Source: a virus. Taken from it: DNA of 64,000 nucleotides. The position numbers were made by a program, and so were the translations under genes. The notes under the pieces are model-generated. The model searched no databases, was not told where the DNA came from, and saw only the letters and a program-made list of their open reading frames with translations. The stretch spans positions 1 to 64,000 of IMG/VR virus record IMGVR_UViG_3300025655_000022; one strand, written 5' to 3'. Shown in pieces: positions 1 through 44,600 of this stretch. How positions within the stretch are numbered: the first letter of the stretch is position 1; every line of letters starts with the position of its first letter.

Positions 1-54
1 TTCGCCTGCACGGCAGTCAAGCATTACATGATAACCCCAATATTCAAACGCCAT
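1..54 (-). CDS. SpeD-family (AdoMet decarboxylase-like) protein, N-terminal fragment
   Basis: Only the first 18 codons lie in the window; the gene runs off the left edge. The visible start, MAFEYWGYHVMLDCRAGE, resembles the first beta strand of AdoMet_dc-family proteins (pattern G-x-H-hhh-D-x-x-x-C/G). The ATG lies inside the last codons of the upstream speD-like gene (11-base overlap), so the two are probably translationally coupled. The family call rests on very few residues and on the neighbour. I recall a phage/proteobacterial SpeD-like family starting with a similar WGYH-hMLDC segment, and this could be a member. Catalytic status cannot be seen. Confidence 0.45.
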   Translation of the reverse strand, partial: MAFEYWGYHVMLDCRAGE

Positions 55-337
55 CGTGTGCTCCTTTTGCTCTGATGAAATCAATATATTTTTGTTCAAT
101 ACATGAACTTAATTCCCAGTAGAATTTATTTTCTTCAGGGAACGTGTGAATCGCAAAATGCGACTCGCTCAAAAGCCATAGAGCTGTCCAGCCAAATGGC
201 TCAAAGGCATGTTCAACATAGTTTAGGACGTTGAATCCTGCTTCATTTAACATACTAGAAAATTCGCTTTCGAGCTGAGAATCGGTTTTATTATCAATTG
301 TTTCCCAACCTTGAGCGTTCCACATTTTCGCTTCCAT
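44..337 (-). CDS. speD: S-adenosylmethionine decarboxylase proenzyme, short form
   Basis: 97 residues. SpeD makes decarboxylated AdoMet, the aminopropyl donor for spermidine, with a pyruvoyl group formed by self-cleavage. The core segment WLLSESHFAIHTFPE is diagnostic. The cleavage-site Ser is Ser59 (after Glu58), the processing His is His64 and the catalytic Cys is Cys79. This 5- and 15-residue spacing equals Ser63/His68/Cys83 of the Thermotoga class 1B enzyme. The usual N-terminal G-x-H...D strand is not recognisable; the protein begins with a divergent segment and goes straight into the helix before the core. An SD-like AAAGGA lies about 12 bases before the ATG, and a T4-type late promoter motif lies about 80 bases upstream. 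The next gene (1-54) seems to be a second SpeD relative. Confidence 0.8.
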   Translation of the reverse strand: MEAKMWNAQGWETIDNKTDSQLESEFSSMLNEAGFNVLNYVEHAFEPFGWTALWLLSESHFAIHTFPEENKFYWELSSCIEQKYIDFIRAKGAHDGV

Positions 338-414
338 TGTTTTTACATCCTTTTATTTCAGAATAAAAAAATCCACACCCCGACGCGAATCGAAATGTAG
401 ACAAAAAGTTATTC

Positions 415-14708: not shown

Positions 14709-15457
14709 AAGGGTTCCATCGAAAACGGATACAGCGGCGTTTCTTTTCCTGTACAAATTGGATGATCTAATACATGTAACGCATAAAAGTTAGGAATATT
14801 ATATATAGAAGACTTTTTGCAGATTTTCCTAACTTCATTTTTTTGGTTAAATTCTGTCAACGCCAATTCTTCCCCGCAAAACGGGTTAAACATAAAACTA
14901 GTTTCTACATCATCAAAGTATAAAGGCATTGCAGGTAAATATCTTTTTGCATCCATTTGAAACAATGGAAATGCATTTATTGTACTTGTGTATTGGTCTA
15001 AATCAACACTAACAAATCCTAAAACTCCAGAGAAATCATTACAGAACTCTGGAATAGTATTTTTAACATCACCGATTACAAGGGTTGCCCGATTGTTAAT
15101 CTTTTCAAGTAATGTGTTGATATCAACACGAAAATCACCCGGCAACCAAAGTTCTGGATGATCTCTGTAATCAACCGGCGGCGGCATCCCGTTTCCAACA
15201 TCAAATCCAGTTATTGTAAATTCTATATCAAATTCATTTCTATAAAATTCAGAATGTTCAATTAATGACAACAGTCCGCCGCCGTTTGCCACTCCTAACT
15301 CAATTACATCTATATGGTCTAACCCTAAACATTTTGCTTCCCAAACACTCATTAGTAAGCCTAAAGATGTACTTCTGTTTCCTTGAATTTCTAGACTATT
15401 TGATCTAATACGACTTGCAATATCGCGTATCTTATTCTCAATATTTCTTAACTGCAT
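14705..15457 (-). CDS. Class I SAM-dependent methyltransferase-like protein (250 aa)
   Basis: Motif I is VIELGVANGGGLLSLIE (51-67), the SAM-binding Gly loop, followed later by VSVDLDQYTST and LYFDDVE, consistent with the acidic residues of small-molecule or sugar O-methyltransferases (TylF/MycF-like shape). It is the last gene of the long minus-strand unit and overlaps the carbamoyltransferase by 10 bases. The target is probably the same glycan or cyclitol handled by its neighbours. Confidence 0.65.
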   Translation of the reverse strand: MQLRNIENKIRDIASRIRSNSLEIQGNRSTSLGLLMSVWEAKCLGLDHIDVIELGVANGGGLLSLIEHSEFYRNEFDIEFTITGFDVGNGMPPPVDYRDHPELWLPGDFRVDINTLLEKINNRATLVIGDVKNTIPEFCNDFSGVLGFVSVDLDQYTSTINAFPLFQMDAKRYLPAMPLYFDDVETSFMFNPFCGEELALTEFNQKNEVRKICKKSSIYNIPNFYALHVLDHPICTGKETPLYPFSMEPF

Positions 15458-16941
15458 ACCTTAACACCATACTTACGTTCAAAACGATCAGCATCCTTAC
15501 GATTGTTTACCATCGGTTCTCCGCGAATGTTTAGACTTGTGTTTAATAACATTGGGCAACCTGTTAGGTTATACCAGGCTTCGAGTAACTTACGAATACC
15601 GGTATCGTCTTTAGGTACTGTTTGTACACGACTTGTTCCGTCAACATGCACAATAGCAGGAAATTCATCTGGGTTGGTACAACGTGCAACTGCCTGCATA
15701 TAAGGACTAGTTTCAAACCCATGTGGCATATCAAAGTATTCGTGCGCATATTCTTCTAGTATAACAGGTGCAAACGGGCGAAAACGTTGTCTGCGTTTAA
15801 TATCATTTACCCGATCTTTGATATCTGGACCTCTGGGATCTGCTAATAACGAGCGTGTGCCTAGCGCACGTGGTCCAAATTCAGCACGTCCTGATGCTAC
15901 ACCCACAATCTTGTGAGATAATAATTCATCTAATAATTGTTTAACTGGATATTCTCCAGGAATGTTTAATCCTAAAAATGCATTAACCCAGTTTAACTTT
16001 TTACCATACGCCAGTGCTGCTGCGCCCAATGAACTACCAGCATCACCTGGATTAGGCATGATCCAGATATTATCATAAAAGTTACCTAGATTACGATTTG
16101 CTAAACAGTTAAGAGCAACTCCGCCCATGTATACTAAATTTTTACTGGTACCTAATTGTCGTGCTTTGCTCATGATATTGTAAATCATTGACTCGGTGAT
16201 CTCTTGTGTTGAGCAAGCAATGTTTTCTAGGTTGGCAGAATCATCCAAGAAGGTACCGGTACCAATATGCATGTTATGTTTGAACTGTGGAGGGTTAATT
16301 GTTTCAACAAATTCATCAAGAATTTCTTTGGTGTAATATGGCTTACCCCATCCTACCATGCCCATTAAAATATATTCTTCGTCCAATGGGCGCAACCCAC
16401 AACGCTGAGTAAATGCTGAATAGAATAACCCAATACTTTGGGGGTATTTCATACCCCAGAGTTTTTTATACTTTGCTATACCATTCTTGTTGTACTCGGC
16501 ATGCCAAATACTAATAGTATCTAGTTCTCCAATCGCATCAATAACAACCACAGTTGCGTCCATGTATGGACTTGTTTGAAATCCTGCTGCTGCATGTGAT
16601 CGATGGTGGGTATATTGTTTTAATTTTTTATTGTATAATAGATTTTCGTGTCCGACAAACTGTTTTAATAATACATCACGCAAACTAAAGTCCCATTGCG
16701 TAATGCGCTCGCCCGATCGGAACTGGCGCAGTTTCTTTAACCAATGATTTTCATAATATGCTACGGTATCAATATCACCATAACCGGCTGCTTCTTCTAG
16801 TATATCATAACACAAGTTTTCATCGTGCTTTCGTTTACTATAACGTTCAGAATGTCCGGCAAATAGTATATTGCCGTTACAGTCAATTACACTTACTCCG
16901 GCATCATGGAAACCGGCACTGATACCTAATATGTTACCCAT
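15448..16941 (-). CDS. O-carbamoyltransferase (NodU/TobZ family)
   Basis: 497 residues. These enzymes make carbamoyl-adenylate from carbamoyl phosphate and ATP and carbamoylate a sugar hydroxyl (NodU on Nod factors, TobZ on tobramycin). Visible: the Kae1-like N-terminal domain with GISAGFHDAG (6-15) and the metal-binding His112-xxx-His116 in THHRSHAAAGF; VVVIDAIGE; and the C-terminal YrdC-like/carbamoyl-transfer region SGRAEFGPRALGTRSLLADPR with RRQRFRPFAP. It starts inside the dehydrogenase gene (8-base overlap). Related genes are known in marine myoviruses. Confidence 0.93.
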   Translation of the reverse strand: MGNILGISAGFHDAGVSVIDCNGNILFAGHSERYSKRKHDENLCYDILEEAAGYGDIDTVAYYENHWLKKLRQFRSGERITQWDFSLRDVLLKQFVGHENLLYNKKLKQYTHHRSHAAAGFQTSPYMDATVVVIDAIGELDTISIWHAEYNKNGIAKYKKLWGMKYPQSIGLFYSAFTQRCGLRPLDEEYILMGMVGWGKPYYTKEILDEFVETINPPQFKHNMHIGTGTFLDDSANLENIACSTQEITESMIYNIMSKARQLGTSKNLVYMGGVALNCLANRNLGNFYDNIWIMPNPGDAGSSLGAAALAYGKKLNWVNAFLGLNIPGEYPVKQLLDELLSHKIVGVASGRAEFGPRALGTRSLLADPRGPDIKDRVNDIKRRQRFRPFAPVILEEYAHEYFDMPHGFETSPYMQAVARCTNPDEFPAIVHVDGTSRVQTVPKDDTGIRKLLEAWYNLTGCPMLLNTSLNIRGEPMVNNRKDADRFERKYGVKVCS

Positions 16942-18890: not shown

Positions 18891-19815
18891 TGTTTATTTT
18901 TTTTATTAGTAAATTTGCCCAAGATCTATGTTGTTTTGGTCCTGGGTGACTATTATCTGTGCCTAGATCGAGCCATGTTGACATATTAATTTTTTCCATT
19001 ATGTATTCATCAATATTTGGCAGCATTGATAGTATCCTATCTGCCTGTTGTATTACTAAAATAATAACATTAACGCCTAACTTTTTGCAAATATTAAGAA
19101 CACATTCGATACTTGTTACATTTCTATACATAATAGTTTCTATATCTTGCGATCTATATTTCTTATGATCTATTATTCTTCCTTTCTCGTCATCCCAAAA
19201 TGGATTCCTATATTCATGAGGAAGTCCCCATATAAGTAAATCTCCTTTTCTAATGTCCGATCTTAAAATTTGTTCGGCACTCCATTCGATACTCATTCCC
19301 CTCCTAGCCAAATAACTAACAGGTATATTAAAATGTTCTTGCACTAAATTACCATATCTTTCTTTATCGGTGACTCCATCGCCAGCGGATATACTACACC
19401 CTGCTACCCAAATTTGAGGAGTATCTATTTTGCGAAAATCTTCTAATTTATTATATTTGTTATTGTTTGTTAAATTTAAATTTTGAACGGTATGATATAC
19501 ATTATTAATATTAACAAGAATAGTTTCAGTGAAGTATTGTTGACCAAAAATATAATTTAATTTTTCATTTTCGTCATTCCATTTTTCCGGAGGATAATAA
19601 AAGATTTTATCTGCTTTTAATAGTATGTCATACAATACTATTTGATGCGATGTTGCATCTGGTAAATCTGCCAATGATGTATAAATCGTGGCAGATTTAC
19701 AATTCAATAGAAAATCTTTATAATTATCATAATTTACTAGATAACTAGATTGATCATATTCTTTTGCTTTATCCGCTAAATATTGACCATTGTCACCTAC
19801 AAGCACAGTAATCAT
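18871..19815 (-). CDS. SGNH/GDSL hydrolase-like protein (314 aa)
   Basis: The catalytic domain starts near residue 135: block I VAGCSISAGDG with nucleophile candidate Ser141, and block V D287-N-S-H290 in TDNSHPGPKQHRSW, the expected D-x-x-H. The first 130 residues are an unassigned domain. SGNH proteins often add or remove acyl groups on sugars. Of three such proteins in this unit, this is the one with a complete Ser...Asp-x-x-His set. Confidence 0.7.
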   Translation of the reverse strand: MITVLVGDNGQYLADKAKEYDQSSYLVNYDNYKDFLLNCKSATIYTSLADLPDATSHQIVLYDILLKADKIFYYPPEKWNDENEKLNYIFGQQYFTETILVNINNVYHTVQNLNLTNNNKYNKLEDFRKIDTPQIWVAGCSISAGDGVTDKERYGNLVQEHFNIPVSYLARRGMSIEWSAEQILRSDIRKGDLLIWGLPHEYRNPFWDDEKGRIIDHKKYRSQDIETIMYRNVTSIECVLNICKKLGVNVIILVIQQADRILSMLPNIDEYIMEKINMSTWLDLGTDNSHPGPKQHRSWANLLIKKINNEQYFR

Positions 19816-21146
19816 TAATTTTTCACCTCAATTCTGTTCCACCACTCATATATTTCTAAATTCTGTTTTAATATTTCTGCCATTGTAATTGGTTGCGTTC
19901 TAATACTTTCTAGAGTTAAAATTCTTTCTTTGCCTCGACGCATACCATCTGCATATTCATCTGGCCATTGCTCTTCAAGCGTGGGCCTATTCAGTAGTTG
20001 TTCTAGAACATCAACTAACGGTTGTTGATGTTTATCGGCATGTGGTTTAATCCGTTCTAACACAGACGAAACATACGGTTCTAATATGTGTCTTGGCAAA
20101 GAAAGAGGACTCATTACAATGTCTGGACTAAACGCAAAAGTAACCTTAGCAAGTATCTGTGTATTTAATTCCTTCGATAGCCAAAACATATTTTCTACTT
20201 CAAAAAGTCCCGGTAAAGTTAGCGTGAAATCTAAACGCATTTGCCTGTCATTTGTTTGTATCGCTTGCGCATCTTTATAGTTTTGTAAAAACTGTTCCCA
20301 TTTTAATCCTGTGCGTATATATTCACCAACAGCACCAGTACCGTCTATACTCGCACAAATTTGCCAGTCTCGCAAATGTGCTAAAATATCTGTATATAGA
20401 TTTAACCCCTTGTAGTTAACCTGCGAAAGATTGGTATTGTATCTAGCATATACACGTAGACCATCACCTAATTCAATAACGCGACGCATATACTCCCAGT
20501 GTTCTTCAAACATCAATGGTTCACCGCCGACCCAATAAATTTCTTCTACACGATGCTCTTCGACTGCTGTTCTAAGTTCTTGATCAACTGCTACAGTTTG
20601 AAATCTTTGTATCTGCTTACGTACCGCAGGAAGCATCCAGTTGTTTTTTGGATTACTTTTATCCCACATATTATGTTTCTTTTCTTCTGCTTCCCAAGAA
20701 CTAGAAAGCATATCGCCGCACATACGACATTTAAAATTACATAAGTTTGAAAACCGATAATCCCAACTTACAGGTTTCATTGTTGTATAACCTGAATCGT
20801 CTGTGGTTTTCCATATTTGATCATATTTGTGATTAAACAAATGTTTAAAATAACTGCGGTATACATCTGTATTAAGAAGTTTATGATTACATACTTGGCA
20901 CTCTTCTGGTATATCGCCCAACATCATTTTAACACGCACATTACGCACGTGTTCTGAATTCCACCATTCATCTAGTGTTAGTGGATTATAATTTCCTGTT
21001 CCTGATTTGGTGTCAATGTACTGTGTAAAATTTTGCGCAGGTTCTCTGCTAGCGCAACAAAGACGACGTTCGCTTTGCGGCGATAGGTATGTGTGCGTCC
21101 AAGGCGCCATACACAAGAATTCTGGTTTGACTTCAGGCTTTTCCAA
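19815..21146 (-). CDS. Radical SAM protein with N-terminal twitch domain (443 aa)
   Basis: Radical SAM enzymes cleave AdoMet at a 4Fe-4S cluster to start radical chemistry. The cluster motif is Cys136-xxx-Cys140-xx-Cys143 in SNLCNFKCRMCG. Before it lies a second Cys set, Cys12, Cys30/31, Cys83 and Cys86 (FLCMAPWTHTY, RRLCC, ECQVC), typical of a twitch auxiliary-cluster domain at the N-terminus. VGGEP near 205-209 is the Gly-Glu SAM-binding motif. This corresponds to the 'twitch domain-containing radical SAM' proteins known in marine phages. Overlaps the previous gene by 14 bases. Substrate unknown. Confidence 0.88.
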   Translation of the reverse strand: MEKPEVKPEFLCMAPWTHTYLSPQSERRLCCASREPAQNFTQYIDTKSGTGNYNPLTLDEWWNSEHVRNVRVKMMLGDIPEECQVCNHKLLNTDVYRSYFKHLFNHKYDQIWKTTDDSGYTTMKPVSWDYRFSNLCNFKCRMCGDMLSSSWEAEEKKHNMWDKSNPKNNWMLPAVRKQIQRFQTVAVDQELRTAVEEHRVEEIYWVGGEPLMFEEHWEYMRRVIELGDGLRVYARYNTNLSQVNYKGLNLYTDILAHLRDWQICASIDGTGAVGEYIRTGLKWEQFLQNYKDAQAIQTNDRQMRLDFTLTLPGLFEVENMFWLSKELNTQILAKVTFAFSPDIVMSPLSLPRHILEPYVSSVLERIKPHADKHQQPLVDVLEQLLNRPTLEEQWPDEYADGMRRGKERILTLESIRTQPITMAEILKQNLEIYEWWNRIEVKN

Positions 21147-22725
21147 ATAAACACTCTGCTAATTCTGGCAAATAATCACGCATATTCTGTTCTCTACGTT
21201 TGTCCATACGCAAGATATCTTCGCGTAAAACATCTGAATCAGTGTCTTTGCTATTCATAAAGAAAGCAATATTTTTAAACTCTCGATAGTGTTTTGGATT
21301 TACTTCTGCTCTCAATAATCTTTCTGTAGCACGTAGTTTTGCTTCCTTGGACAAACTAGTTACGCAATACTGTGGGGCATCGTGTAACATATTCCAGTAT
21401 ACAAAATCAAATCCTTGTTCATCAATCCAATTAGCAAGTTCTTCTAAGTACATTACATTAAACACATTAACTGTAGAGCAAACTTGTAATGTTAAATTAT
21501 TACTGCGTTCACGCAGACGTTTGAATCTCTCTAAATTCTTTTCTAATGTACGCCACTCTGCTCCATATCGTTGGTATTCAAATCTTTCACGTAAGTCATC
21601 AATTGAAAACGCGACTTCAACGTGTTTAAACGGTTTCCAAATAGAATCATTTTTTGGATATAATGTTGTATTAGTGTTATAGTGTATTTCGATATTCTTT
21701 GCATAATCATTGTCGATTAAATATTGCAAAAAATCAAAATGTTCTTGAATCATAAACGGTTCGCCACCAGTAAATTCAATATATCGAATTCCTGAAGACA
21801 TATTATGTAACTCGTCCCAGAAGGTTAAACTTTTTCGTGGCCAATTTCCGCTGCGGTTTGCTTTATAAGGGAAACTATCCTTACGATCATTTAATGGAAG
21901 TTCTCTTAATTCTTCACCAGCATAGGTACTAGAACTCCAGGATCCACAAATACGGCACGCAAGGTTACAGATATTTCCTAATTTTAAATCCAAGAACATT
22001 AAATCTCTTGAGTCCGCTGTCCATTCTTTATCAGTTACAAACATATTTGACAATCGCAAAATAGTATTCATGCGTTTGCTAGTTCGATTTGATTTTTCTT
22101 CTTCCCAGCAATTATTACATTCAACGGGCTGAATTCCTTTAAGGAACGCCGAACGTAGTTGATTCATATATTCTGATTGATGAGCTGTTTTTAAACTATC
22201 CTTGTTCAGATCAAATTTAACACCATGATTGTTAACAATCTCGCCCTTAAACATACAACAGGGACGAATTGTACCAATTGGACTAGCTTCTAGACTAATC
22301 CAGGGCAAAACACAAAACTTACTATGTGGAAGATTCATTTTATCTACTTTACTTTGATCTGTGATCATTTTATCTTTAACCAACCTTGCCAATTTAATTA
22401 ATTCTTTTCCATTGAAATACTGCATCGGTTGCGGATCAAAACTAATATGTTCAGCAACCCAGGATATATCGTCTAAAACATTTTTGTCTTCCGAAACTAT
22501 TACAACAAAATCATTGCCAATATCAATATCATTTAATGCAAGTTGAATTTCTATTAACTTCTGTCTAGTTTGAGAAGCACTGACTACAAATACGATTCTT
22601 TCATTAGGGTTATACTGTTCTCTAAAAGAATTTTTACAAAACTCATTAATTTCCGTCACTGTGGTACTATCAAAAATTACAGTTGTATTAATAACTTCAA
22701 CTAATTCATTAAGTTGTTTAATCAT
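21133..22725 (-). CDS. Radical SAM protein with N-terminal twitch and extra Rossmann-like N-terminus (530 aa)
   Basis: Cluster motif Cys253-xxx-Cys257-xx-Cys260 in GNICNLACRICG; twitch cysteines Cys138, Cys156/157, Cys203 and Cys206; Gly-Glu motif FTGGEPF. It has about 130 additional N-terminal residues absent from its four relatives, with alternating strands and helices (RIVFVVSASQ, DFVVIVSED). This extension could bind a partner or carrier. It is coupled by ATGA to the gene before it. Confidence 0.88.
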   Translation of the reverse strand: MIKQLNELVEVINTTVIFDSTTVTEINEFCKNSFREQYNPNERIVFVVSASQTRQKLIEIQLALNDIDIGNDFVVIVSEDKNVLDDISWVAEHISFDPQPMQYFNGKELIKLARLVKDKMITDQSKVDKMNLPHSKFCVLPWISLEASPIGTIRPCCMFKGEIVNNHGVKFDLNKDSLKTAHQSEYMNQLRSAFLKGIQPVECNNCWEEEKSNRTSKRMNTILRLSNMFVTDKEWTADSRDLMFLDLKLGNICNLACRICGSWSSSTYAGEELRELPLNDRKDSFPYKANRSGNWPRKSLTFWDELHNMSSGIRYIEFTGGEPFMIQEHFDFLQYLIDNDYAKNIEIHYNTNTTLYPKNDSIWKPFKHVEVAFSIDDLRERFEYQRYGAEWRTLEKNLERFKRLRERSNNLTLQVCSTVNVFNVMYLEELANWIDEQGFDFVYWNMLHDAPQYCVTSLSKEAKLRATERLLRAEVNPKHYREFKNIAFFMNSKDTDSDVLREDILRMDKRREQNMRDYLPELAECLFGKA

Positions 22726-24008
22726 ATTTGTAATTCTTTTAATTCAGGTATATAATCTAACACATTTTCATTGCGAATGCTATCTAATTGGCGAGTCTTA
22801 TCCCAAAACTTTTGTAATAGTGCTGAGTTGTCATTGTTTAAAAAGTTAAGAGCAGAACGGTAACCAGTTGAAGCACGGGTTAAATAATCTTGCGGTTCAA
22901 GCCATTCTAAATGTCTGCTATATCTTTCTCGTATCGCGTCTTTGTATTCCGGGGTAGCAATATCAATTCTATAATGTGCTGGATCTTGTAAAATATTAAT
23001 ATTAAAGTCTTGCGGGTTAATCCACCCTTTTAAACACCAGTCTCTATGAAAGTCTGTAATATGTAATGCGTTAAAAATGCTTAATGTAGCACTAATGTAA
23101 AAATCAACATGCGGACATTCTTTGCGTAAGTCTTGAATATTTTGTTCGACATCTGCCCAGCGTGTGCCTGAACGAATATACTCTGCACGGGCACCCATTG
23201 CATCTAAACTTGCACCTACACTAACATTTGGAAAATGCTCCCACATATCAAATGCATGTTTGTCTCGTAGTTTTACTTGTGTAAAGTTTGTGTTATAAAT
23301 CAGTCGAACATCAGTACGTCCACGTTTAATAAGTTCTTCAAGTATAGCATAGTGTTCTTCCATCACAAGAGGCTCACCACCAGCAAAATAAATCTGTTCT
23401 ACATAATCAATATGTTCCAACACTTGCTCTAACAAGTCTGTTTCAAACTTGCCAGCATAGGTTAACTGTGGGTTATTCTCTTTATACTCTGGACCTGCTA
23501 GTGCAATTTGATCCTTGTACCATTGTGAACTAAAAATGTGGCCACAACTCCTACACTTGAGATTACACAAGTTACTGAAACGAACATCCCAATAGGTCAT
23601 CTTAAAATTGGCGTAGGCACCATCAGCGTCAGTTTCCGCTACACGCTTTATGTGCTGACCATGATGTTTGTTTGCTGACTTGCGACCACTAAAAAAGCCT
23701 GCCTCGTCTTGTTCATAACAACGAGTGCAGTATGAATTCTTTTGATTATTTAACATGTCCAAACGCAGTTTCTTTATGCGTTCGCTATTTGCTAGTTTGT
23801 TTAACGAGTCTTGTTTGGTAGTGCCCACACAACCTGCACTCATCTCTGCGTGACAACAAGGCCAAGTTTCGCCTGTAGGATATGTGTGCATGTGTATCCA
23901 CGGATAGATACAAAACGTTTCGCTGTCTCGCAGTAATTCTGTTTCTCGCTCTGTTAATTCATCTACCGAGATCTTAACAGGTTCCCAACTGTTATAATCA
24001 TAACTCAT
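22722..24008 (-). CDS. Radical SAM protein with N-terminal twitch domain (428 aa)
   Basis: Cluster motif Cys148-xxx-Cys152-xx-Cys155 in SNLCNLKCRSCG; twitch cysteines Cys33, Cys51/52, Cys94 and Cys97 (FCIYPWIHMHTYPTGE, WPCC, YCTRC); Gly-Glu motif FAGGEPLVM. It belongs to the same subgroup as the two downstream radical SAM genes (F-C-x-x-P-W start, Cys-Cys pair). Stop and start are shared with the next gene (ATGA). Confidence 0.88.
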   Translation of the reverse strand: MSYDYNSWEPVKISVDELTERETELLRDSETFCIYPWIHMHTYPTGETWPCCHAEMSAGCVGTTKQDSLNKLANSERIKKLRLDMLNNQKNSYCTRCYEQDEAGFFSGRKSANKHHGQHIKRVAETDADGAYANFKMTYWDVRFSNLCNLKCRSCGHIFSSQWYKDQIALAGPEYKENNPQLTYAGKFETDLLEQVLEHIDYVEQIYFAGGEPLVMEEHYAILEELIKRGRTDVRLIYNTNFTQVKLRDKHAFDMWEHFPNVSVGASLDAMGARAEYIRSGTRWADVEQNIQDLRKECPHVDFYISATLSIFNALHITDFHRDWCLKGWINPQDFNINILQDPAHYRIDIATPEYKDAIRERYSRHLEWLEPQDYLTRASTGYRSALNFLNNDNSALLQKFWDKTRQLDSIRNENVLDYIPELKELQI

Positions 24009-24756
24009 ATAAAATACCTTGATTTAGCAACACTTGGACTAGATATTCTGTTGTCCATTTGTAGTGTCCTTCAGCAGTAGGGTGGCCAGCCAGGTAACCA
24101 GCTGCCGATTTAGGATAGCAAAGGTTATGCATGTGTGCAACTTCATCAAGTGTTTGCATTCTGTTTATTAGAATCCATTTTGAGTAATCTAATTTTAAAT
24201 TTAACCTTTTTAGATGCTTGTTAAACTTAAATTTATTAGTAATAATGTCTGTGTCAAGTATTTGTGACAGTGTTGTAAATCGATAGGTATATTGGTTTAG
24301 TTCTAAATAGTTATAGAGATTTTGCATATTAATCCAATTTAACAGCACTTGCGTATTTTCACCTACTAAAGACCGGTAGGTATTACAAAAGTCTGTATCT
24401 GGACCAAAGTTGTCTCCGCCTAGTAAGAAATACTCGCTGTGTTCGTTGTACCTATATTCTGGATGCTGTTTTTCTATGGTGTACTTGTCTGACTCAACAA
24501 TAAGACTGGCGCGATCTAATCCGCTCCACATAACTAATACTAACGTATCTAACGGAGACATATTGTTAGCAGACAGATAATGCATTACGCTTCTAGATAT
24601 ATGCTCATTGGACTCGCTAGGCACTGCTAAGTTATGAATTTGCATGCCTGCGATATCAGCAAGCATATTTCCCCAAGATATACTTTCGTGATAATCGTTG
24701 GCCGTATAGCTACATCCGCTAACAACTAAGTGTTTGTACTTAGTCTTATAGTTCAT
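23998..24756 (-). CDS. SGNH-like protein (252 aa)
   Basis: I set the start at the ATG at 24756, where MNYKTKYKHLVVSGCSYT begins, because the longer frame lies entirely inside the preceding radical SAM gene. Block I is SGCSYT (nucleophile candidate Ser16). The C-terminal AGHPTAEGHYKW resembles block V, but the Asp three residues before the His is missing (Leu222), so catalysis may differ or be lost. Overlaps the upstream radical SAM gene by 11 bases. Confidence 0.6.
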   Translation of the reverse strand: MNYKTKYKHLVVSGCSYTANDYHESISWGNMLADIAGMQIHNLAVPSESNEHISRSVMHYLSANNMSPLDTLVLVMWSGLDRASLIVESDKYTIEKQHPEYRYNEHSEYFLLGGDNFGPDTDFCNTYRSLVGENTQVLLNWINMQNLYNYLELNQYTYRFTTLSQILDTDIITNKFKFNKHLKRLNLKLDYSKWILINRMQTLDEVAHMHNLCYPKSAAGYLAGHPTAEGHYKWTTEYLVQVLLNQGILYEL

Positions 24757-26101
24757 TATACCATTCTCCAATGACAGGGAATGTTTCTGCCAGGTTTTTG
24801 CCGCGACGTTGATCATATTGTGCATAAAACTTTTTAAAGTCATTGTGCAGCGATGGCATATCAAACGTATCTGAGTGCGGAGTCTTAACAACATCTAAAT
24901 AATCAATTAGTCGTTGCACATGATTAATCTCATGTTCATGCAGTAGTAGATTTTTATATGCATGTTCTTCTAACCAAGTATCTAGTTTGTCTGCATAATC
25001 CATACGCAAATCATCTGGTAATACCAATGGCGATTGAAAACTTGGAAAACGTAATATGTTTAATGTAAACGAAGGATAATCCTGACCAAAACGTTTCTTT
25101 AAATCTAGCATCCAATCTAAAAACTCTGTTAATGATTCTAAGCATAATGCATTAATAGTACACATAACATGGAAACCGTCCACTTTGCCTTCGGTTAGAA
25201 CACGTTCAACATTGTGTTGCCATTGTTCCCAATTTAAACCATCGCGTATATATTCTGCGTGTGCTCCAATACTTTCGTTACTGGTATATAACTGGAAATT
25301 TTTGATGTTATGGCTTGCTTTAATTAGCTGATCAAGTTTAGCATCGTCGATTCCAAGATTACTGTTTAGAGCAAATTTCACCGGGCTTTCATTCTCAACA
25401 AACCAATCAATGAGTCGCATGGTGTGCGGGCTCATCATAGGTTCGCCTCCGGTTAAGCGTAGCTCTTGTAGAGTTTTGTGCAGATCTGATTCCCACCATT
25501 TAAAGAACGCTTCTACATACGGATTAGTTTCGTTTGGCTTATACAACTGTGCTGCATCGTGTGTGTGCGTAAAGTGTCCTCTACCATCGCTAACCAGTCC
25601 TTCATACGCACCGTGTTTCTTTAAATCTGTAACCCATTGCGTACTAAACGCAGGATTGCAATACGAACATGCAAACTGACAAGTTCTGTCAAACGCAATT
25701 TCTAATGTCTTTAAATCTACATCTTCATCTGGATTTAGCATATATGCTTCTACAAGATCCTGCTCAGAATAGATCACACTTTTATAAACACGGTCGCTAA
25801 TAGCGTCGCGGCCCATGTCTTCGATCTTCCAACAATACTCACATCCGGGCGGACGTTCTCCTACTTGCATTTGCGCACGATCTTGTTTCTTTTGTGGAGT
25901 ATTGTGTAATGCTTTTGGATTAGCAACAACATCCCCAACACTTACTAAATGTGCCGGCGGGTGGTGGCAACTTGTAGTCATGCCGGATCCTAGCCAAATA
26001 GTAGCATTATACCACTTAGCTGCACAAAAGCTCGGACTAAAACCATCGATATATCCTTTAACTTCTAAGTCTGTATTTCTATCCTTCTTTCTTAAGCCCA
26101 T
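24746..26101 (-). CDS. Radical SAM protein, 'SPSFCxAKW' twitch subgroup (451 aa)
   Basis: Cluster motif Cys141-xxx-Cys145-xx-Cys148 in DRTCQFACSYCNP; twitch cysteines Cys26, Cys45, Cys87 and Cys90 (SPSFCAAKW, TTSCHHPP, GCEYC); LTGGEPMM Gly-Glu motif. With the protein at 28259 it forms a second subgroup, distinct from the three radical SAM proteins further downstream. Both its N-terminus (LRKKDRNTDLEVK) and C-terminus (ETFPVIGEWY) are closely mirrored in the broken gene at 27051-27223. Confidence 0.88.
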   Translation of the reverse strand: MGLRKKDRNTDLEVKGYIDGFSPSFCAAKWYNATIWLGSGMTTSCHHPPAHLVSVGDVVANPKALHNTPQKKQDRAQMQVGERPPGCEYCWKIEDMGRDAISDRVYKSVIYSEQDLVEAYMLNPDEDVDLKTLEIAFDRTCQFACSYCNPAFSTQWVTDLKKHGAYEGLVSDGRGHFTHTHDAAQLYKPNETNPYVEAFFKWWESDLHKTLQELRLTGGEPMMSPHTMRLIDWFVENESPVKFALNSNLGIDDAKLDQLIKASHNIKNFQLYTSNESIGAHAEYIRDGLNWEQWQHNVERVLTEGKVDGFHVMCTINALCLESLTEFLDWMLDLKKRFGQDYPSFTLNILRFPSFQSPLVLPDDLRMDYADKLDTWLEEHAYKNLLLHEHEINHVQRLIDYLDVVKTPHSDTFDMPSLHNDFKKFYAQYDQRRGKNLAETFPVIGEWYNEL

Positions 26102-26171
26102 ATGTTACTTAACCTACAATCGTTTTCAATAAATGTTTTATCTACATATTTCTCATCCACTGGCAGTGGAT

Positions 26172-26387
26172 TTAACACATCAGATAACTTCGCTCTTTAA
26201 AATTTAACAACTTATACCAGTCACTATTTTTAAATTATGAGTCAAACCAAGTCATGTTAATAACTAGATTTTGATTATTTGGAAACGCTTCGTCAACCTG
26301 CTGGCAACCATTGTTCCAGATCTCTTTCTCTGGTTTTGAATATTGATCTACAGATGATGGTGTTTGGCCTAATGTTATCGTACTCAT
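26172..26387 (-). pseudogene. Remnant of a glycosyltransferase gene (N-terminal part only)
   Basis: A 50-codon frame starts at 26387 with an ATGA overlap on the gene before it. It ends FPNNQNLVINMTWFDS and then TAA at 26235-26237; the same frame continues FKNSDWYKLLN to a second stop at 26172. The protein at 27207-28262 reads FPNERNLIVNITWLGPQFKNGIWEQV at the same position, so the frame aligns straight through the stop. The rest of the gene, including the conserved C-terminal block, is absent. The remaining 70 bases to 26101 hold a short open stretch in another frame that I cannot assign. Confidence 0.65.
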
Positions 26388-27061
26388 TGGATATACTTTT
26401 TATAATAAGTCTGATTATAATGCTGGTATTTTTCAATAAACTTTACGGCTTGGGTATTTAAATCAACAAAAAAGTTTTTATTTACAACGTCAACTAAACG
26501 TTTGTCAGATAGGCCAATAACTGTTGCAAAATCTATAACAACATCAAACTCTGTAGGATCTGTAGCTGTTACCCATTCTTTTACATAGTTTAAATTATGC
26601 AAAGATATCATTTCATTGGCAATTATTTCTGAATCTCGAATATTGGTTAGGCTGTATTCAGGCCAGTCATTTCCACGCAAGTTATTATATGCTGTCTCTG
26701 TCCACGACTCAGGATTTGAGTCAGCTTTAAAAGTTTTCTGTGCAGACACTAACAAAAAATCATCAGGTTTACAGTTGATCAATGTTACACACGATCCAGA
26801 ATAAAATTTTTCTATATCATTTCGGTTTGTAAAATGTGTAGTCCCAACTGTAAACTTTTTACTTTTATCTGACATCAAAAACGAAAAGTTGTTTCCTGAT
26901 TGCCATTTTCCAAAACCAATATCGTGGCAGTTTCCCTCGGGCGAAATGTAAACATTGTCTAAATCAAAACCTTGCAATCCAGATAATAGTACTAATTCTA
27001 AAAAAGTTCCTGATGCACCAGTCGGGTGATTTATTACATATTGTTGACTGTTATCTTGCAT
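26384..27061 (-). CDS. Hypothetical protein, possible P-loop/sulfotransferase-like (225 aa)
   Basis: The N-terminus, YVINHPTGASGTFLELVLLSGL, has the shape of a nucleotide- or PAPS-binding loop (Gly-x-Ser-Gly-Thr) followed by a helix, as in sulfotransferase-like proteins. The rest shows no second motif that would settle this. Its start overlaps the last codons of the broken radical SAM gene, and its stop overlaps the broken glycosyltransferase gene (ATGA). It thus sits intact between two remnants. Confidence 0.5.
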   Translation of the reverse strand: MQDNSQQYVINHPTGASGTFLELVLLSGLQGFDLDNVYISPEGNCHDIGFGKWQSGNNFSFLMSDKSKKFTVGTTHFTNRNDIEKFYSGSCVTLINCKPDDFLLVSAQKTFKADSNPESWTETAYNNLRGNDWPEYSLTNIRDSEIIANEMISLHNLNYVKEWVTATDPTEFDVVIDFATVIGLSDKRLVDVVNKNFFVDLNTQAVKFIEKYQHYNQTYYKKYIQ

Positions 27062-27223
27062 AATACCTACACTCCCACCAGGTAATCATCTCTGGAAATG
27101 TTTCTGTAAAATTATATCCATGCCGCTTATTATATTCGTTAAAGAAAAACTCGTACTGAATTCATCGACCCATTGCTTAATTTCCAGGTCTGTTTCTCTA
27201 CCCGGTTTACGTAGTTTGCTCAT
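27051..27223 (-). pseudogene. Radical SAM gene remnant: both ends kept, middle deleted
   Basis: From 27223 one frame reads MSKLRKPGRETDLEIKQWVD, matching the N-terminus of the radical SAM protein at 24746 (LRKKDRNTDLEVKGYID). From about 27146 a different frame reads YEFFFNEYNKRHGYNFTETF and continues with PEM, Trp-Trp and CRYYAR to a stop at 27051, matching the C-terminus of the protein at 28259 (RFFNEYDHRHNYDFLQVFPE...WW). About 380-400 codons, including the cluster motif and twitch cysteines, are missing between them, and the join is out of frame. The frame from 27223 could make a 45-residue peptide ending at 27086. Its start overlaps the upstream glycosyltransferase by 17 bases. Confidence 0.8.
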
Positions 27224-28262
27224 TGAATAACTCGTTTAATTTTTTATCTTGTTCTTGTGCAAATTCAAAGAATCTTTTTCTATTATAAACTAGATCAGGA
27301 AGCATGTCAACATACATACTGTTTAAATCTGCTGTAGTTAGATATTTAACGGCTTCTGTGATAGCTGGGATTATTTGTTCTTCGTTTACATCTTCTAACT
27401 CAACTGGGAAGTAATGCGTAAATGTTTTAAATCCGTTGTCTCTTAACCATTGATATATCTGCGGCTGACCGTTAATAAGGAACGGGCGCATGCCTATGAT
27501 TGGTTTCCATGTCTTTTCAGTGACAAACATAGGATCCCACGGCCGCCATTCTGTTTCAGATATGATGTTCAAAAAGTGCTTGCGCCAGATATCTAACCTT
27601 CCAAGACTGCAAACATCAAACGGCACACCACCAAATGCATTATAGCCGCTTACAGACTCTGGAGCATAATCTTCTGGTGCATCATTATTAATTTTTAAAA
27701 ATACATCTGTGTTAATGCCTTCGCTTGCGTCATAATCAGCATTGTTAAGTCCTAATGTAACAATACCATCATCAAGTAAATTGTTGTGCTTTAAGGATTC
27801 AACAATACGAATTCTATGTGGTTTGGGTTTTCTATTTAAACACATGTATTTGTATTCTATAGTTTCTAAACGCACATCTTCGTCTGTGTAATTTGGAAAA
27901 TCCTGATAGCTTGCAATAGCACCTGTGTTAAATGTATATGGCCCAGTATTAAACGAAGATCCAACATGAAACACACGGTTTACACCAAGACGTTGTTCAA
28001 TCTCGTTACGCTGTTTTTCTGTTATTGTTAGAGGGTCAACAGGAGCCAACCAAAATAGATTATCGTACGTCTTATTAATGCTACAAACCTGTTCCCATAT
28101 TCCATTTTTAAACTGCGGACCTAGCCAGGTGATATTAACTATTAAGTTACGTTCGTTAGGAAAGTTAAACTCAACTTGACGTTTTACTGTATCAATAATA
28201 TAATGCTCTTGTTTGCCCCACGGTTCATTAATGGCAAAATGTGTTCCAATAAATGTTATCAT
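27207..28262 (-). CDS. Putative glycosyltransferase, 'FKTF' family (351 aa)
   Basis: C-terminal block TEKTWKPIIGMRPFLING followed by NGFKTFTHYFP, shared with the proteins at 11269, 12470 and 29658; central CLNRKPKPHRIRIVES. I choose the ATG at 28262 because it gives an ATGA overlap with the radical SAM gene before it and because the related remnant at 26387 starts at the same place; an ATG at 28283 is also possible. Pairs with a radical SAM gene on each side. Confidence 0.6.
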   Translation of the reverse strand: MITFIGTHFAINEPWGKQEHYIIDTVKRQVEFNFPNERNLIVNITWLGPQFKNGIWEQVCSINKTYDNLFWLAPVDPLTITEKQRNEIEQRLGVNRVFHVGSSFNTGPYTFNTGAIASYQDFPNYTDEDVRLETIEYKYMCLNRKPKPHRIRIVESLKHNNLLDDGIVTLGLNNADYDASEGINTDVFLKINNDAPEDYAPESVSGYNAFGGVPFDVCSLGRLDIWRKHFLNIISETEWRPWDPMFVTEKTWKPIIGMRPFLINGQPQIYQWLRDNGFKTFTHYFPVELEDVNEEQIIPAITEAVKYLTTADLNSMYVDMLPDLVYNRKRFFEFAQEQDKKLNELFNEQTT

Positions 28263-29671
28263 TGATTGGCCCAGTACTTGCATTCATTCCACCAGGCTGC
28301 CATTTCCGGAAATACCTGCAAAAAGTCATAATTGTGACGATGGTCATATTCATTAAAAAATCTATAGAAATCTCCCTTGTGCTTTTGTGAATTTTCAATA
28401 GGTGTTTTCATCCAAGCAATGTCTCTGTCCAGGCGTTTAATTTCGTAATCTTTAAATCCTTTAAAGCGTGTTCGTGGTGTTTCAACATGTTCCATCATCC
28501 ACATCATTAGATCTTCTAGTTTGTCTGCGTACATATCCGGAAGCAATCGCATACTCTGCCATTTGGGAGTGTGCAATACAGGAGTATCAAACCAAACACG
28601 CTGATAGGTATTACTATAAAGTTGTCTTAATCCATATATTCCAGTAAACAAATGTTCTAAACTGGTTACTGATAGATTATTCATTGTAATAATAAATGTT
28701 AAACTACTTCTATATGGTACTTCTGTTAAAAATTGATTTACACGATCCCATAATAAATTAAAGTTTAGTCCAGCACGCATATATTCTGCTTGTTTACCAA
28801 ACCCATCAAGTGAAACATATTGCATAAAATGTTCAACATTCTCACCTTCATTACAAATACGTTTCACATAATCAATATATTTGTCCCATAGTTTTTGTTC
28901 TACACTGAGATTAGATGTTACATTTAGGTGTAAGTCTGGTTTTGGATTCTCTAATACATAATCAAACACACGATATGTGTTTTTATCCATTAGTGGTTCA
29001 CCGCCTGTCATGCGGAAATGTTTTAAATCAGGATACAACTCTGGCCACCATTGCCAAAATGCTTCTACGTATGGATTATACTCTGAATGCGGAATAGGTC
29101 TACGTTCTCCTTGGAAGTGTACAGGATCGTTATGAGGAACGCTTGTTGGATACGCACCATGTTCTTTTGCCTGGCGCATCCACGAACTGCTAAATTGGGG
29201 TGAGCAATAACTACACTCTAAATTACAAGCAGAGTTAAAGTTCACCTCAACATACGCAGGGTTAGTGTCTGCCATTGGGTCAGCTACAACTTCATCAAAC
29301 TTTTCAATAGCCCACGGTTCTCCTGAACGGTAGTGTCTATCACTAAGTTTTCCGTTATCTTCCATTGCCCAACAATAGAAGCACTCCTCAGGACGTTCGC
29401 CTGCGATCATCTTTTCACGCTGTAGTTTTTTATAATCAGTGTTATGCAACTTACCGGGATTTCCGGCGAGTTCTTCTACAGGTATTTTGCGTAGTGGTGG
29501 ATGATAACATGAGTTATTCATGCCATTGGTTAAATGCAAACTTACCTGCTTCCATTTAGCCAAGCAGAAACTTGGACTCACTGTATCTAATTTTTGTTGT
29601 GCTATTTCTGCATCACTTAAGAACTTTGACTTAAAGTCCTTGTCTACTTCGTCACCTTTATTTTGGTTCAT
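28259..29671 (-). CDS. Radical SAM protein, 'SPSFCxAKW' twitch subgroup (470 aa)
   Basis: Cluster motif Cys149-xxx-Cys153-xx-Cys156 in NSACNLECSYCSP; twitch cysteines Cys36, Cys55, Cys97 and Cys100 (SPSFCLAKW, NNSCYHPP, ECFYC); MTGGEPLM Gly-Glu motif. Close paralog of the protein at 24746, including the segment after the cluster motif (W...K-x-H-G-A-Y). It overlaps the glycosyltransferase gene before it by 14 bases. Confidence 0.88.
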   Translation of the reverse strand: MNQNKGDEVDKDFKSKFLSDAEIAQQKLDTVSPSFCLAKWKQVSLHLTNGMNNSCYHPPLRKIPVEELAGNPGKLHNTDYKKLQREKMIAGERPEECFYCWAMEDNGKLSDRHYRSGEPWAIEKFDEVVADPMADTNPAYVEVNFNSACNLECSYCSPQFSSSWMRQAKEHGAYPTSVPHNDPVHFQGERRPIPHSEYNPYVEAFWQWWPELYPDLKHFRMTGGEPLMDKNTYRVFDYVLENPKPDLHLNVTSNLSVEQKLWDKYIDYVKRICNEGENVEHFMQYVSLDGFGKQAEYMRAGLNFNLLWDRVNQFLTEVPYRSSLTFIITMNNLSVTSLEHLFTGIYGLRQLYSNTYQRVWFDTPVLHTPKWQSMRLLPDMYADKLEDLMMWMMEHVETPRTRFKGFKDYEIKRLDRDIAWMKTPIENSQKHKGDFYRFFNEYDHRHNYDFLQVFPEMAAWWNECKYWANQ

Positions 29672-38670: not shown

Positions 38671-41600
38671 TCACTCGCCTCTGAAGAATCGTGCTGGAGT
38701 TGTTTGTTGTTTTTGCAGTGCAATACCATTGGTTATATACCATATTAAATTATATGGATGGCGTAAAACGCTACCTCGTGATTGGTCTTGTACTGAACTA
38801 GACGCGGCGTGTCTTTGAGTTGCTGTACCGGCTGTGCCTCTTCTGAGTCCACTGATGGTGTTATTGATTGTATCGCGTGTTCTGTAGGTAATCCTTTCAC
38901 CATTAATATTAACTACACCAAAGATACCTGCCGGAAGATTGGGTTCGCCCAGCTTGCTTGCGTCATCAACATACACTGTGTCATGCCAGGGTTCCAAATC
39001 TTGCACAAGTTCAGTTGTATTATCACGTATAATACGGTATACTGCTGCATTCCCACGCATATCGTTAAAAATTCTGAATGACAATTCATCAGGAACAACA
39101 CTATTAGTAAATGTGGTAATAGCAACCACATCAATTGAACTGATCGCACCTCCTGATAAAAGAATAGCAGTGCCATCGTTTGATAAAACAAAATCTTCAC
39201 CTGCTGTCAATCTGCGTCCATTGAGTGTTACCCAGATTCGGTCAGCATTTTCAATTGTTCGATATAGTTCAAAAATATTGACCGTTGAATCAACACCAAT
39301 AGTATAGTCAAACGGTACACTATCGAAACCAAAAACGTCCATCCCTTCTGATACTGGAAGTTCAATTACTTTGGGTCCTTGATACACCACAGTGAGTGCA
39401 TCTTGTTGTCTGATATCTCTGAATGTAGTCACTGCGATAACATCCCCAGCACTCAAGACAATACCAGAGCTTACAATTTTTAATTCATTATTGATGTTGT
39501 TAACTGTATAGTCAGCCGATCCAGTAACATAGACATCCACCGTATCGCCAGCATCAGGAGTTACTGACATGATAACATACCGTTCAGAACTTTCATCGTT
39601 AAGTGATACAGCATAATCGCTGCCCAGTGTTTTCTTTTGGTTGTTTATGTATACAACTACTTCTGAATCAGCAATTAATGTCTGATCAGTTCCTGTGCGG
39701 ATGCCATCTGGGAAATAAAACTCCACAGTTGTACCATCACCGATGTGTCGAATGCCTTCGCTAGGGCGCAATCTTCGTCCATTGAGTTCAACGATGATAT
39801 TATCTCTGGCTGAGCTTTCGATATTACCAGAAATAATAAAACTGGATGTGGTTCCGTCTGAAACAAATATTTCTGTTTCAGGATAACTATATCCATAATC
39901 GATTAATGATGAATCTGATTCAAGAATTTGTTCACCAAACAAAGTTACAACTATGAAATCATTGCCAGTGTATGTTGTGCTGAAAATAAATTCAGTTTCG
40001 CCAACCACGGTTTCAGAATAGCTATATGCGGTGGTTTCAATACCATTTATCAGGATCAATGCCTGATCAATGTCGTTAACATCCACTGGCACAGTTATTC
40101 GATTTCCAATCTTATCGCCGATATAATTTTTTCTGAATATCTGATGTCCGCCGCCAATCTCATAAACATAAATCTTTACTACTTGGCCGGACGATACACC
40201 AGAAGTTACTGTGATTGTTCTGTTTACCCAGTTGATGGTATAATTTCTGTTATTATACAACCTATCACCAGTGGTACCATTGAATACCACCAATTCCACA
40301 GGATGTTCAACAATTCCAGCAAAACTAAAGGTATCTCCGCCATCATAAACATATGATATGCCTTTGATCTGTGACGCATGCCCATTGCCAGTATAATCAT
40401 GCCCAGGTCTGGTTCTGACTGTCATATCAAGTGTATCAAATATTGCGCCAGGTACTAATTCTTCTGGAGCATGTGAACTATATTCATCAATAAATGCCCC
40501 ACCATCTACATTGATGTCTTCAGCACGTGTTCCGATGTAGATATCTGTAAACAAACTGCTGTATTCTGTGTCTAATATGGCATCACTATATGTGGGTAAT
40601 CCTTCAGGACCATAGTCAATATTATCAAATGGTGTAATATCAAAATTTCCAATATCATAACCAGTGTTATCACTAAAGTTTGTGCTTTGTACTTGTACAC
40701 CTGGATAATCGATTCCATCGATCAGCAAAGCCAAATCCAATCCAGGATTGTTTACATCAGCAACATAAAAACCGGTAGTACGATCAACACCGCTCAGTGT
40801 GGATGCATTTACCAGTTCATAATTTTCTGGATCAAATGTTGATTCCTGAATTGAGCTACCATCTGCTAAACTTACGCGATACACACGGTCGTTATAGCGC
40901 ACCAATTGATCTTCATTGTAAACCGTATCTGGCGTCCAATCCACTATCTGGCTCTGATATTCATAGCGATCATACTTGATTGTAGTCTTGATGTTTCTGA
41001 CCAGATCGTTTTTCATGTACACGGTAGTACGTGCGCCAGTGCCATTTCCACCAGTGATTTCTATGATCGGGGTTGTTCTGTATCCATATCCTGCGGTTGA
41101 AATTTGAATTTCAGTAACCTGTCCTACAGAATTAATCAGCGCAACTGCTTGTGCTGGCTGCGTGGCATCTCCAATAATGTTAACGGTGGGTGGTACTGTA
41201 TATCCAGATCCAGCATTGGTTATAACGATTTCATCTACTGCGAGCAGATGATTATCATACCAGTCTGACCAAGGTATGGTATCCCATACACTATCAGTGG
41301 ATAAACGATTGCTTGGATCTGTTTCCAGAGCAGCAAACCCATCATCTAGAATTGGACTTACATATTTTTCATAAACCGAATCATACGCCGCAGGATTATC
41401 AAAATCAGTTGCGCTGCCATCATATAAGTCAATACCTTCATATTTTAATAAGAAGTCTTTAATCTTAACGTGATATGGTTTAGCCTCTTCAATATAGTTT
41501 TGCACAAATGTTTGGTTGTCTTTTCTGTAAACATTGTACTTTTCAAGATTTCTGACTTTGTGTTCGACGTCGATTAAACTAGTCTTAAACAACCAATCAA

Positions 41601-44600
41601 TAGATCCTTGTTCAGATAAGATATAATTAAACATCATGACCAAAAGTTGATTTCTTTGCGCAATGGAATTCCCAACAAATAGCTCTTCATTAATTGCTTT
41701 GATTATTTGTCGAGTTTCTATAACTGGTTCTTGATCAAAATATTGTGCATCAAAGATCTCAACATCAAACCCATAAAATCCTGTGTTTGCATAATCCCAC
41801 AGTGCGTCACTTAACCGGATTGTGCCTCGTTGAGTGCCCACTCTGGTCCAACCACTTGTGCTATTATAATTGTAGAGTTCCCAATTGCCGGTACTGTTAA
41901 CATTAACTTTTACTAGCGTGTCATCAGGCACTGTTAACGCAAGAAGCTCACTATATGTGCTGACAATTCTTGATGGTTTGGATAAGCTATTGTATCCATC
42001 TGCATACCAATCAGTATAATCCCAGTACTTGGTTGTGTTATAATTTTGCACTCTGATTAACATCAAAGACAGATCAGCTTGCACCTGATATATGGTCCAT
42101 AATCCATTGTTGCTACTGTCAGATTCAACCAATATCCTGTACCCAGAGCCAACCAATTGTAAATTTTGATAGCTTAATTCTGAAAGATCAGCAACACGGT
42201 CGTCATATGCTCCGGAAGAACTGGACGGAATAGGATCTTTGCTACTTAAAATATTAAACGCAGTTAACTCAGCATATGGTTGTTGCGCGAGCAACAGATT
42301 TGCATTCGTGATGTAAATTTTTAATGCTGCTAACCGATCAACAAACAGACTTCTTCTGGGTCTGAATTCAACACCATATCTATCGTCAGGTGATAATCCA
42401 ATGTCCGGCACTTTGTTACCAAGTGTGTCTGTGCCACAAAAACTGTCTTGAAGTTTTCGATATATGCTATCAGACAAGAAATCTTTTGGTCTCTGTTCTC
42501 TGATTAAATCATACTCAACAAATACTTTGTTTTCATTAAAATTTTGATTGTACTCAATATGCAAAATACTATTGGACTCATCCACATATTCATTAACATT
42601 ATACAGAGCAACAACATTTTTTCTCATCATTGCTGCATATGGGATTCCTGAACTTTGTGGATTTTGGATATAAGATGCAATTGCAGTAGCACTCAGTGTT
42701 TTTCCTAGCTTTCTGTTAACTGTGGTGTAATCTTTGACCCAGAAATAATATCGTGTGGTGATTGTTCTGGTCTGATCCAGTCCACTGATAACTGTGTATT
42801 GATTGATGTCTTTAACTGTTCCTGTACCGGTGTATTGTGCCGGCGGTACTGAGCTTTCAATCCATTCATAAACATCAACACTACTACCATCTGCTAGTGT
42901 ACCCCAGTTTTTAGAACTATAAACTAAATCTTGTTGATTGTAATTCACAAACCTTGCATTAGTGGTATCCCACCAGATTGTTCCAGTTTGACTGGCTGCC
43001 CAATATGTTCCATTGTTATTAACACTATATGATGCTGGGTCCACTGCACCAATAATATCAATATTTTGTTGTGCAGCACCCAGAATTTTTCCATTTACTG
43101 GGTCAATAAAGTCCAGATATGCTTTGACTGCTTGTGTGTTTGCATCATAAATGTAAACAGCATCAATTAAACGATGATCAACTTTTGTTGGCTGTTCCTG
43201 AATTGGTTGCCATGCAGCAGATCCGGTTGAACTTGCAAAAATTGTTAGTCTGCCAATGTTAGTCAGTGCGGTATCGTAACCTGGGCTGGTAACCAAAAGA
43301 AGATTATCAGTAAAATCAACAGCCGTTCCAAATCCATCCAATTCTTTGACATCTGGGCTGAAGATCTGTTGGCCAAACACAAATTTTCCAGGTACATTAT
43401 AATTTGAGCTAGGTAGCAGATCGAACGTAAACACCGCACCACTGTCAGGCACAACATCTGATAAGTTAGTGGTGTTGCTATCAAACGTTGTATTGGATGA
43501 ATCAAACACAATTGGAATAAACGCACTGGATTTTTTAGCACCAACAACTAGATTGGTTGCACTATAATCAACATGAATACTTGAGCCGAACTCACTGTAT
43601 TCTTCTGGTCTTGGACTCACAATTGTTTGTGTTAATTCATATGGTTGTAACCCCAGTGTTTCAAATGCAGTGCCCTGACCTGGCATCACTGTCATTTTAG
43701 AAAGCAGCGGTGATTCATTGATATTAATGTTACTAATTCTGAGCTTATTATCGACAATAGATGCCTGAACATTTGGAATAACTGCTGAATTGATATCAGA
43801 TACTATTTGATTTAATGATGTTCCAGTAAATTGTACATCAATATTGTCAATTCTAATAGTTTCACCAACAGTCACTGATGGATTGACAACGGTACTATCA
43901 ATATATCCAAACACTCTGGTTCTGCTAACAAATCTGGCAACACTGCCTGCTTCAGGAAGCAAGGTATTATCTTTTGGTGAGCTCACATACACAGAACAAT
44001 CAGTTCTGCAAACACCAAGTGCTGAGCCGAAATAAGCACTCTGGTTGGATTTTTCTGCCGTTAGCGTCTGTACTAACTGAAATTGATTAACATCAATATC
44101 AATCAAATCGCCTGTATTTAATACTGTGCTTGCATCAACGGTAATACTGTTTGAACCAATATCAATACTATAATTTGAATCAACATTGTTGATCGAATTA
44201 ATTTGTTTTACTCTGTTGATTCTAACTGCGTTAACTGCATCGATTGATCTTCTGGTTGGATATCTCAATGTATTTTTGTTAGTTACAACAAATCGTTCCA
44301 CTATGCGTTCGTATACATAGGTTTTTCCTGCGAAACTTTGTATTTCGCCATCAACAATGTTTGTTGCATCAGGTGCACCAATTATTACTTGCTGTCCATC
44401 ACTAGTAGTCTTGACTGATCTACCAAAATCTTCGTTGGACGATCTAGAAATTTTACCAACATATCTGAAATAATCCTGTGCTCTGATTGATATTATTGTA
44501 CCAGAAGATGGGGCAACTGTAAACGTTATTTCTTTTGTGGAATCGTTAAATGTATAATCGTAATATGGACGTAAAAGAACACCATTAATATCTACACTAA

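Follow-up and report, generated by a model that had tools for sequence, protein, structure and literature searches.

Phages are known to carry the decarboxylase genes speD or speDC singly, and the main survey of them names a single phage that combines polyamine enzymes, an AdoMet decarboxylase together with a spermidine synthase (PMC9992855). In bacteria, SpeD-SpeDC pairs and fusions have already been described (PMC10407285). We found no report of a speD-speDC pair in phages, in a literature search that was thin on subscription papers. Individual phage enzymes have been characterized: the SpeD of Croceibacter phage P2559S brought spermidine back in an E. coli delta-speD strain without a phage partner, and the SpeD of Sinorhizobium phage phiN3 is a proven AdoMet decarboxylase (PMC9992855). 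According to Li et al. 2023 (PMC10407285), four positions separate ornithine decarboxylases (SpeDC) from SpeD, and a Thr at one of them is diagnostic of active ornithine decarboxylases. The same study reports a Pro common to all true AdoMet decarboxylases, which we take, from the text on the sequence logo, to be T. maritima P71.

The locus considered here lies at the edge of a viral contig. The window, meaning the whole 64,000-base stretch of DNA that was analysed, is the first part of an 87,177-base IMG/VR record, which begins at window position 1. Two adjacent minus-strand genes, here called A and B, occupy this edge, and the start of gene B lies inside the 3' end of gene A, giving an 11-base overlap. 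With a probability of roughly 70%, we interpret them as a phage-borne speD-speDC pair that would provide decarboxylated AdoMet and putrescine for a host spermidine synthase. The features of the locus are as follows.

348..352, minus strand: Shine-Dalgarno-like AAGGA of gene A, 10 bases before the start codon, read from the sequence
44..337, minus strand: gene A, short SpeD (AdoMet decarboxylase) of the PHROG 27309 subtype; ORF 337..44, 97 aa
161..166, minus strand: Glu58-Ser59 of gene A, predicted self-cleavage site at which Ser59 would become the pyruvoyl group, placed by alignment with T. maritima Glu62-Ser63
161-163, minus strand: Ser59 codon of gene A, aligning with T. maritima S63
146..148, minus strand: His64 of gene A, placed by alignment with T. 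maritima His68
101..103, minus strand: Cys79 of gene A, placed by alignment with T. maritima Cys83
61..65, minus strand: Shine-Dalgarno AGGAG of gene B, 6 bases before the start codon and within gene A, read from the sequence
1..54, minus strand: first 18 codons of gene B, MAFEYWGYHVMLDCRAGE, predicted SpeDC-type (ornithine decarboxylase) homolog; ATG at 54-52, runs off the contig

Gene A: a probable short AdoMet decarboxylase

Gene A belongs to the SpeD family by profile comparison. It matched Pfam AdoMet_dc with E=8.9e-13 (49 bits, above the gathering score of 25) and PHROG 27309, 'S-adenosylmethionine decarboxylase', with E=2e-33. Its score of 42 bits against NCBIfam TIGR03330 falls below the equivalog cut-off of 75.65 bits, but so does that of the proven P2559S SpeD (63.3 bits), so for the short subtype this threshold is not a suitable measure.

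The catalytic residues are in place. Alignment with T. maritima S63, H68 and C83 confirmed the full set of Ser59, His64 and Cys79 that a preliminary description of this DNA had reported. Equivalents of T. maritima F49, P71 and E72 are also kept, and W70 is replaced by Phe in both gene A and P2559S SpeD. Together with Glu-Ser, His and Cys, gene A carries the Pro taken as the marker of a true AdoMet decarboxylase (T. maritima P71).

The AlphaFold model of gene A has the SpeD fold (pLDDT 94.6), and its best PDB matches by Foldseek are the AdoMet decarboxylases of T. maritima and A. aeolicus. The preliminary description had found no recognisable N-terminal strand with a G-x-H...D motif. The motif is indeed absent, as it is across the entire short SpeD subtype, but the strand itself is present in the model at residues 6-13. 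Compared with B and T. maritima, gene A instead has no C-terminal strand. Viral contigs often encode relatives of the same length, and we reject a reading of gene A as a truncated fragment, given dozens of relatives of about this length and the confident fold model.

Gene A shares 54% identity with P2559S SpeD over 92% of its own length and joins this proven AdoMet decarboxylase in the tree (support 98/95). Since this closest tested relative is active alone, gene A most likely encodes an AdoMet decarboxylase that would need no helper.

Gene B: a predicted ornithine decarboxylase cut by the contig edge

Only the first 18 residues of gene B are encoded in the window. They scored 20.7 bits against a profile of full-length B relatives, compared with a maximum of 7.9 bits among 40,000 random 18-mers from unrelated ORFs with family members excluded, so the match to the SpeD family is not due to chance. 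The earlier account had proposed reading the sequence to the left of position 1; there is none, as position 1 is the end of the 87,177-base record. The contig itself, and not just the window, ends within gene B, and the catalytic and signature residues of the window's B lie off the contig. An exact search of IMG/VR with 36 bases from gene B returned no contig that extends it, and no second complete SpeD was found in the window's record.

We note that L002, a near-identical contig, ends 12 bases earlier in gene B than the window's record, so that gene B is interrupted in two contigs from almost the same virus, at points within 12 bases of each other. L002 contains nothing that matches the final 2 kb of the window's record.

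A complete gene B is available from a related viral contig, L003, where a gene A 69% identical to that of the window is followed one base on by an ORF of 121 aa (L003:3284-3649). This protein matched Pfam AdoMet_dc (E=2e-17), and its AlphaFold model (pLDDT 95.4) shows the full SpeD fold, with TM scores of 0.84-0.87 to T. maritima SpeD. With the profile score of the 18-mer and the Pfam match of this ortholog, gene B stands as a SpeD relative, and the earlier reading of two adjacent, overlapping SpeD-family genes holds. We infer that the truncated B of the window resembles its L003 ortholog beyond residue 18.

Full-length B proteins have the signature of ornithine decarboxylases. We placed the four diagnostic positions of PMC10407285 by aligning two proven enzymes, those of Ca. 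Electrothrix aarhusiensis and Methanogenium cariaci; the name of the organism, rather than an accession, served to link each locus to its published enzyme. L003 B has Q/T/F/Y at T. maritima positions 58/62/69/77, matching the proven ornithine decarboxylases. The same Gln, Thr, Phe and Tyr occur in B of L004, L141 and L143, and the pyruvoyl Ser, His and Cys are kept in all four full-length proteins; the window's own positions are off the contig. L003 B has Thr-Ser where SpeD has Glu-Ser. The preliminary description had suggested checking whether the second protein lacks the Glu-Ser cleavage site: the site is absent from full-length B relatives, but what replaces it is Thr-Ser, whose Thr is reported in PMC10407285 as diagnostic of active ornithine decarboxylases.

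In the tree, L003 B groups with the ornithine decarboxylases of Ca. Electrothrix and Methanogenium cariaci, to which it is 52% and 46% identical, respectively. The base of this clade is occupied by phiN3 SpeD, which has Gln, Phe and Tyr but Asp for Thr. As phiN3 has three of the four ornithine decarboxylase residues and yet is a proven AdoMet decarboxylase, neither membership of this clade nor the fold is enough to settle the substrate, and the assignment of gene B leans on the Thr and on close proven relatives.

Gene B might instead encode an active pyruvoyl enzyme that acts on a different substrate, either a second AdoMet decarboxylase, as in phiN3, or an arginine decarboxylase (ADC), as in pelagiphage HTVC201P. 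Proven enzymes of both kinds fall within this clade or next to it (PMC9992855; our tree), and an ADC-like gene lies beside a SpeDC gene in one viral contig (L065). However, L003 B has all four ornithine decarboxylase residues, including the Thr that is Asp in phiN3; it is 52% identical to a proven ornithine decarboxylase versus 36% to phiN3 SpeD; and the SpeD homolog of the related pelagiphage HTVC115P is without the Gln, Phe and Tyr. We therefore consider another substrate unlikely. Gene B is most likely an ornithine decarboxylase (SpeDC), an activity predicted from its full-length relatives.

Recurrence of the pair

The arrangement was found repeatedly in viruses. Searching every retrieved locus with profiles, we identified a SpeD gene paired with a SpeDC-type gene in at least 11 distinct viral contigs; this and the following counts are minimum numbers and should not be read as frequencies. 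Five contain the short subtype (the window, L003, L004, L141 and L143) and six contain canonical SpeD (L060, L062, L063, L106, L133 and L135). The same pair occurs in bacterial loci of that scan (L243, L246, L261, L274 and L280). SpeD comes first in six of the 11 viral contigs and SpeDC in five, and spacing in the short-subtype pairs ranges from the 11-base overlap to a 7-base gap.

Most other relatives of A and B are unpaired. Among the 80 loci nearest to gene A, the five top E-values belong to the five with B alongside; the top match, L139, is a near-identical contig whose B is truncated just like the window's. A beta1-alpha1 (first) loop longer by 2 residues was seen only in paired A proteins.

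These features bear on whether A and B, as active pyruvoyl decarboxylases with different specificities, might be obligate partners in a heterodimer, a split counterpart of SpeD-SpeDC fusions, which would couple B's putrescine to A's activity. Such fusions exist in bacteria, two domains of this kind are joined in the eukaryotic enzyme (PMC10407285, PMC5201418), paired A proteins form a distinct subgroup with the longer loop, and the last strand is present in B and missing from A. On the other hand, unpaired A relatives are common, P2559S SpeD works alone, and the lack of a conserved gene order does not speak for an obligate complex, so that we regard this arrangement as quite improbable.

Two paralogs with overlapping genes, a short A without the G-x-H motif, and dead SpeD paralogs in viral arrays (the L135 middle gene) would fit the tentative proposal of the preliminary description that B is an inactive prozyme acting with A in a hetero-oligomer. 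We reject it because complete B proteins retain the catalytic residues (L003, L004, L141 and L143 keep Ser, His and Cys; those of the window's own B are off the contig), and it is highly improbable also given that A's relative P2559S is active alone (PMC9992855) and that prozymes are reported from trypanosomatids only, with a dimerization domain absent from bacterial enzymes (PMC5201418).

Other arrays of SpeD-family genes were observed among the loci. In L135:2301-3448, three such genes stand in tandem, with a degenerate copy between an intact SpeDC-type gene and a canonical SpeD. In this middle gene, Asn replaces the pyruvoyl Ser and Ser replaces the Cys, making it a candidate prozyme-like dead paralog by its residues. 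At L131:1497-2875, an intact SpeDC gene is immediately preceded by an ORF that combines a methyltransferase-like domain with a degenerate SpeDC-like domain, the latter having lost Ser, His and Cys. The viral contig L065 (357 kb) has, directly before a SpeDC-type gene, one that resembles the SpeD homologs of pelagiphages such as HTVC115P (L065:2087-2857); the homolog of pelagiphage HTVC201P is a proven arginine decarboxylase. In Microcystis phage MaAM05 (L056, MW495066), speD is followed by another speD-like gene, speE and speB without interruption, a gene set also published for the bacterium Vampirovibrio (PMC10407285). Either this phage encodes a nearly complete pathway, or the record contains bacterial DNA.

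Proposed function and significance

For the speD-speDC pair that we favour, gene A would self-cleave at Glu58-Ser59 to form its pyruvoyl cofactor and decarboxylate AdoMet to yield the aminopropyl donor. Gene B, probably co-translated with A from the overlapping start, would self-cleave at Thr-Ser to form its own pyruvoyl cofactor and decarboxylate L-ornithine to putrescine. The two products would then be joined by a spermidine synthase (SpeE), presumably supplied by the host. We found no spermidine synthase in the window's 87,177-base record, which is possibly partial, and the proposed pathway consequently depends on the host. In this way, the phage could relieve both rate-limiting steps of spermidine synthesis with ~220 residues and no PLP. 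Both enzyme activities are predicted from sequence.

AdoMet and ornithine decarboxylase genes are linked repeatedly in viral contigs, in either order, which suggests that certain phages drive the two rate-limiting steps of spermidine synthesis jointly. The phage pairs may also represent natural split versions of the SpeD-SpeDC fusions that have been proposed as ancestors of the eukaryotic AdoMet decarboxylase.

Other features of the window

One minus-strand block (19815-29671) encodes at least four proteins that match radical SAM enzymes, and a Nol-like carbamoyltransferase (15448-16941) lies near this block. A single ORF of 4,413 aa (38671-51912) adjoins baseplate-like genes.

Comparison with known systems

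P2559S SpeD (P2559S_67) resembles gene A in being of the short subtype (PHROG 27309), in having no G-x-H motif, and in keeping Glu-Ser, His and Cys. However, it has no second SpeD-family neighbour, the next gene encoding a hypothetical protein, and its first loop is 2 residues shorter.

For gene B, the SpeDC enzymes of Ca. Electrothrix aarhusiensis and Methanogenium cariaci share with L003 B the four diagnostic residues and the catalytic Ser, His and Cys (PMC10407285). In contrast to B, they are cellular, occur in other genomic settings, and have no short-subtype SpeD neighbour. The phage SpeDC singletons of a Lake Baikal phage and uncultured Caudovirales phages are, as predicted for B, pyruvoyl ornithine decarboxylases, with lengths of 117-122 aa (PMC9992855). 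Unlike the pair, they are reported as single genes, and we compare them with B by description rather than by sequence.

Bacterial SpeD1/SpeD2 pairs and SpeD-SpeDC fusions (Anaerolinea, Atribacteria and Desulfotignum; PMC10407285) place both activities next to each other, as proposed here, but they are clustered with speE and contain canonical SpeD rather than the short subtype. The trypanosomatid AdoMet decarboxylase and its prozyme (PMC5201418) are, like A and B, two paralogs with the SpeD fold. They differ in being fused class 2 enzymes that possess a dimerization domain and in having a dead, unprocessed prozyme, whereas B relatives keep their active-site residues.
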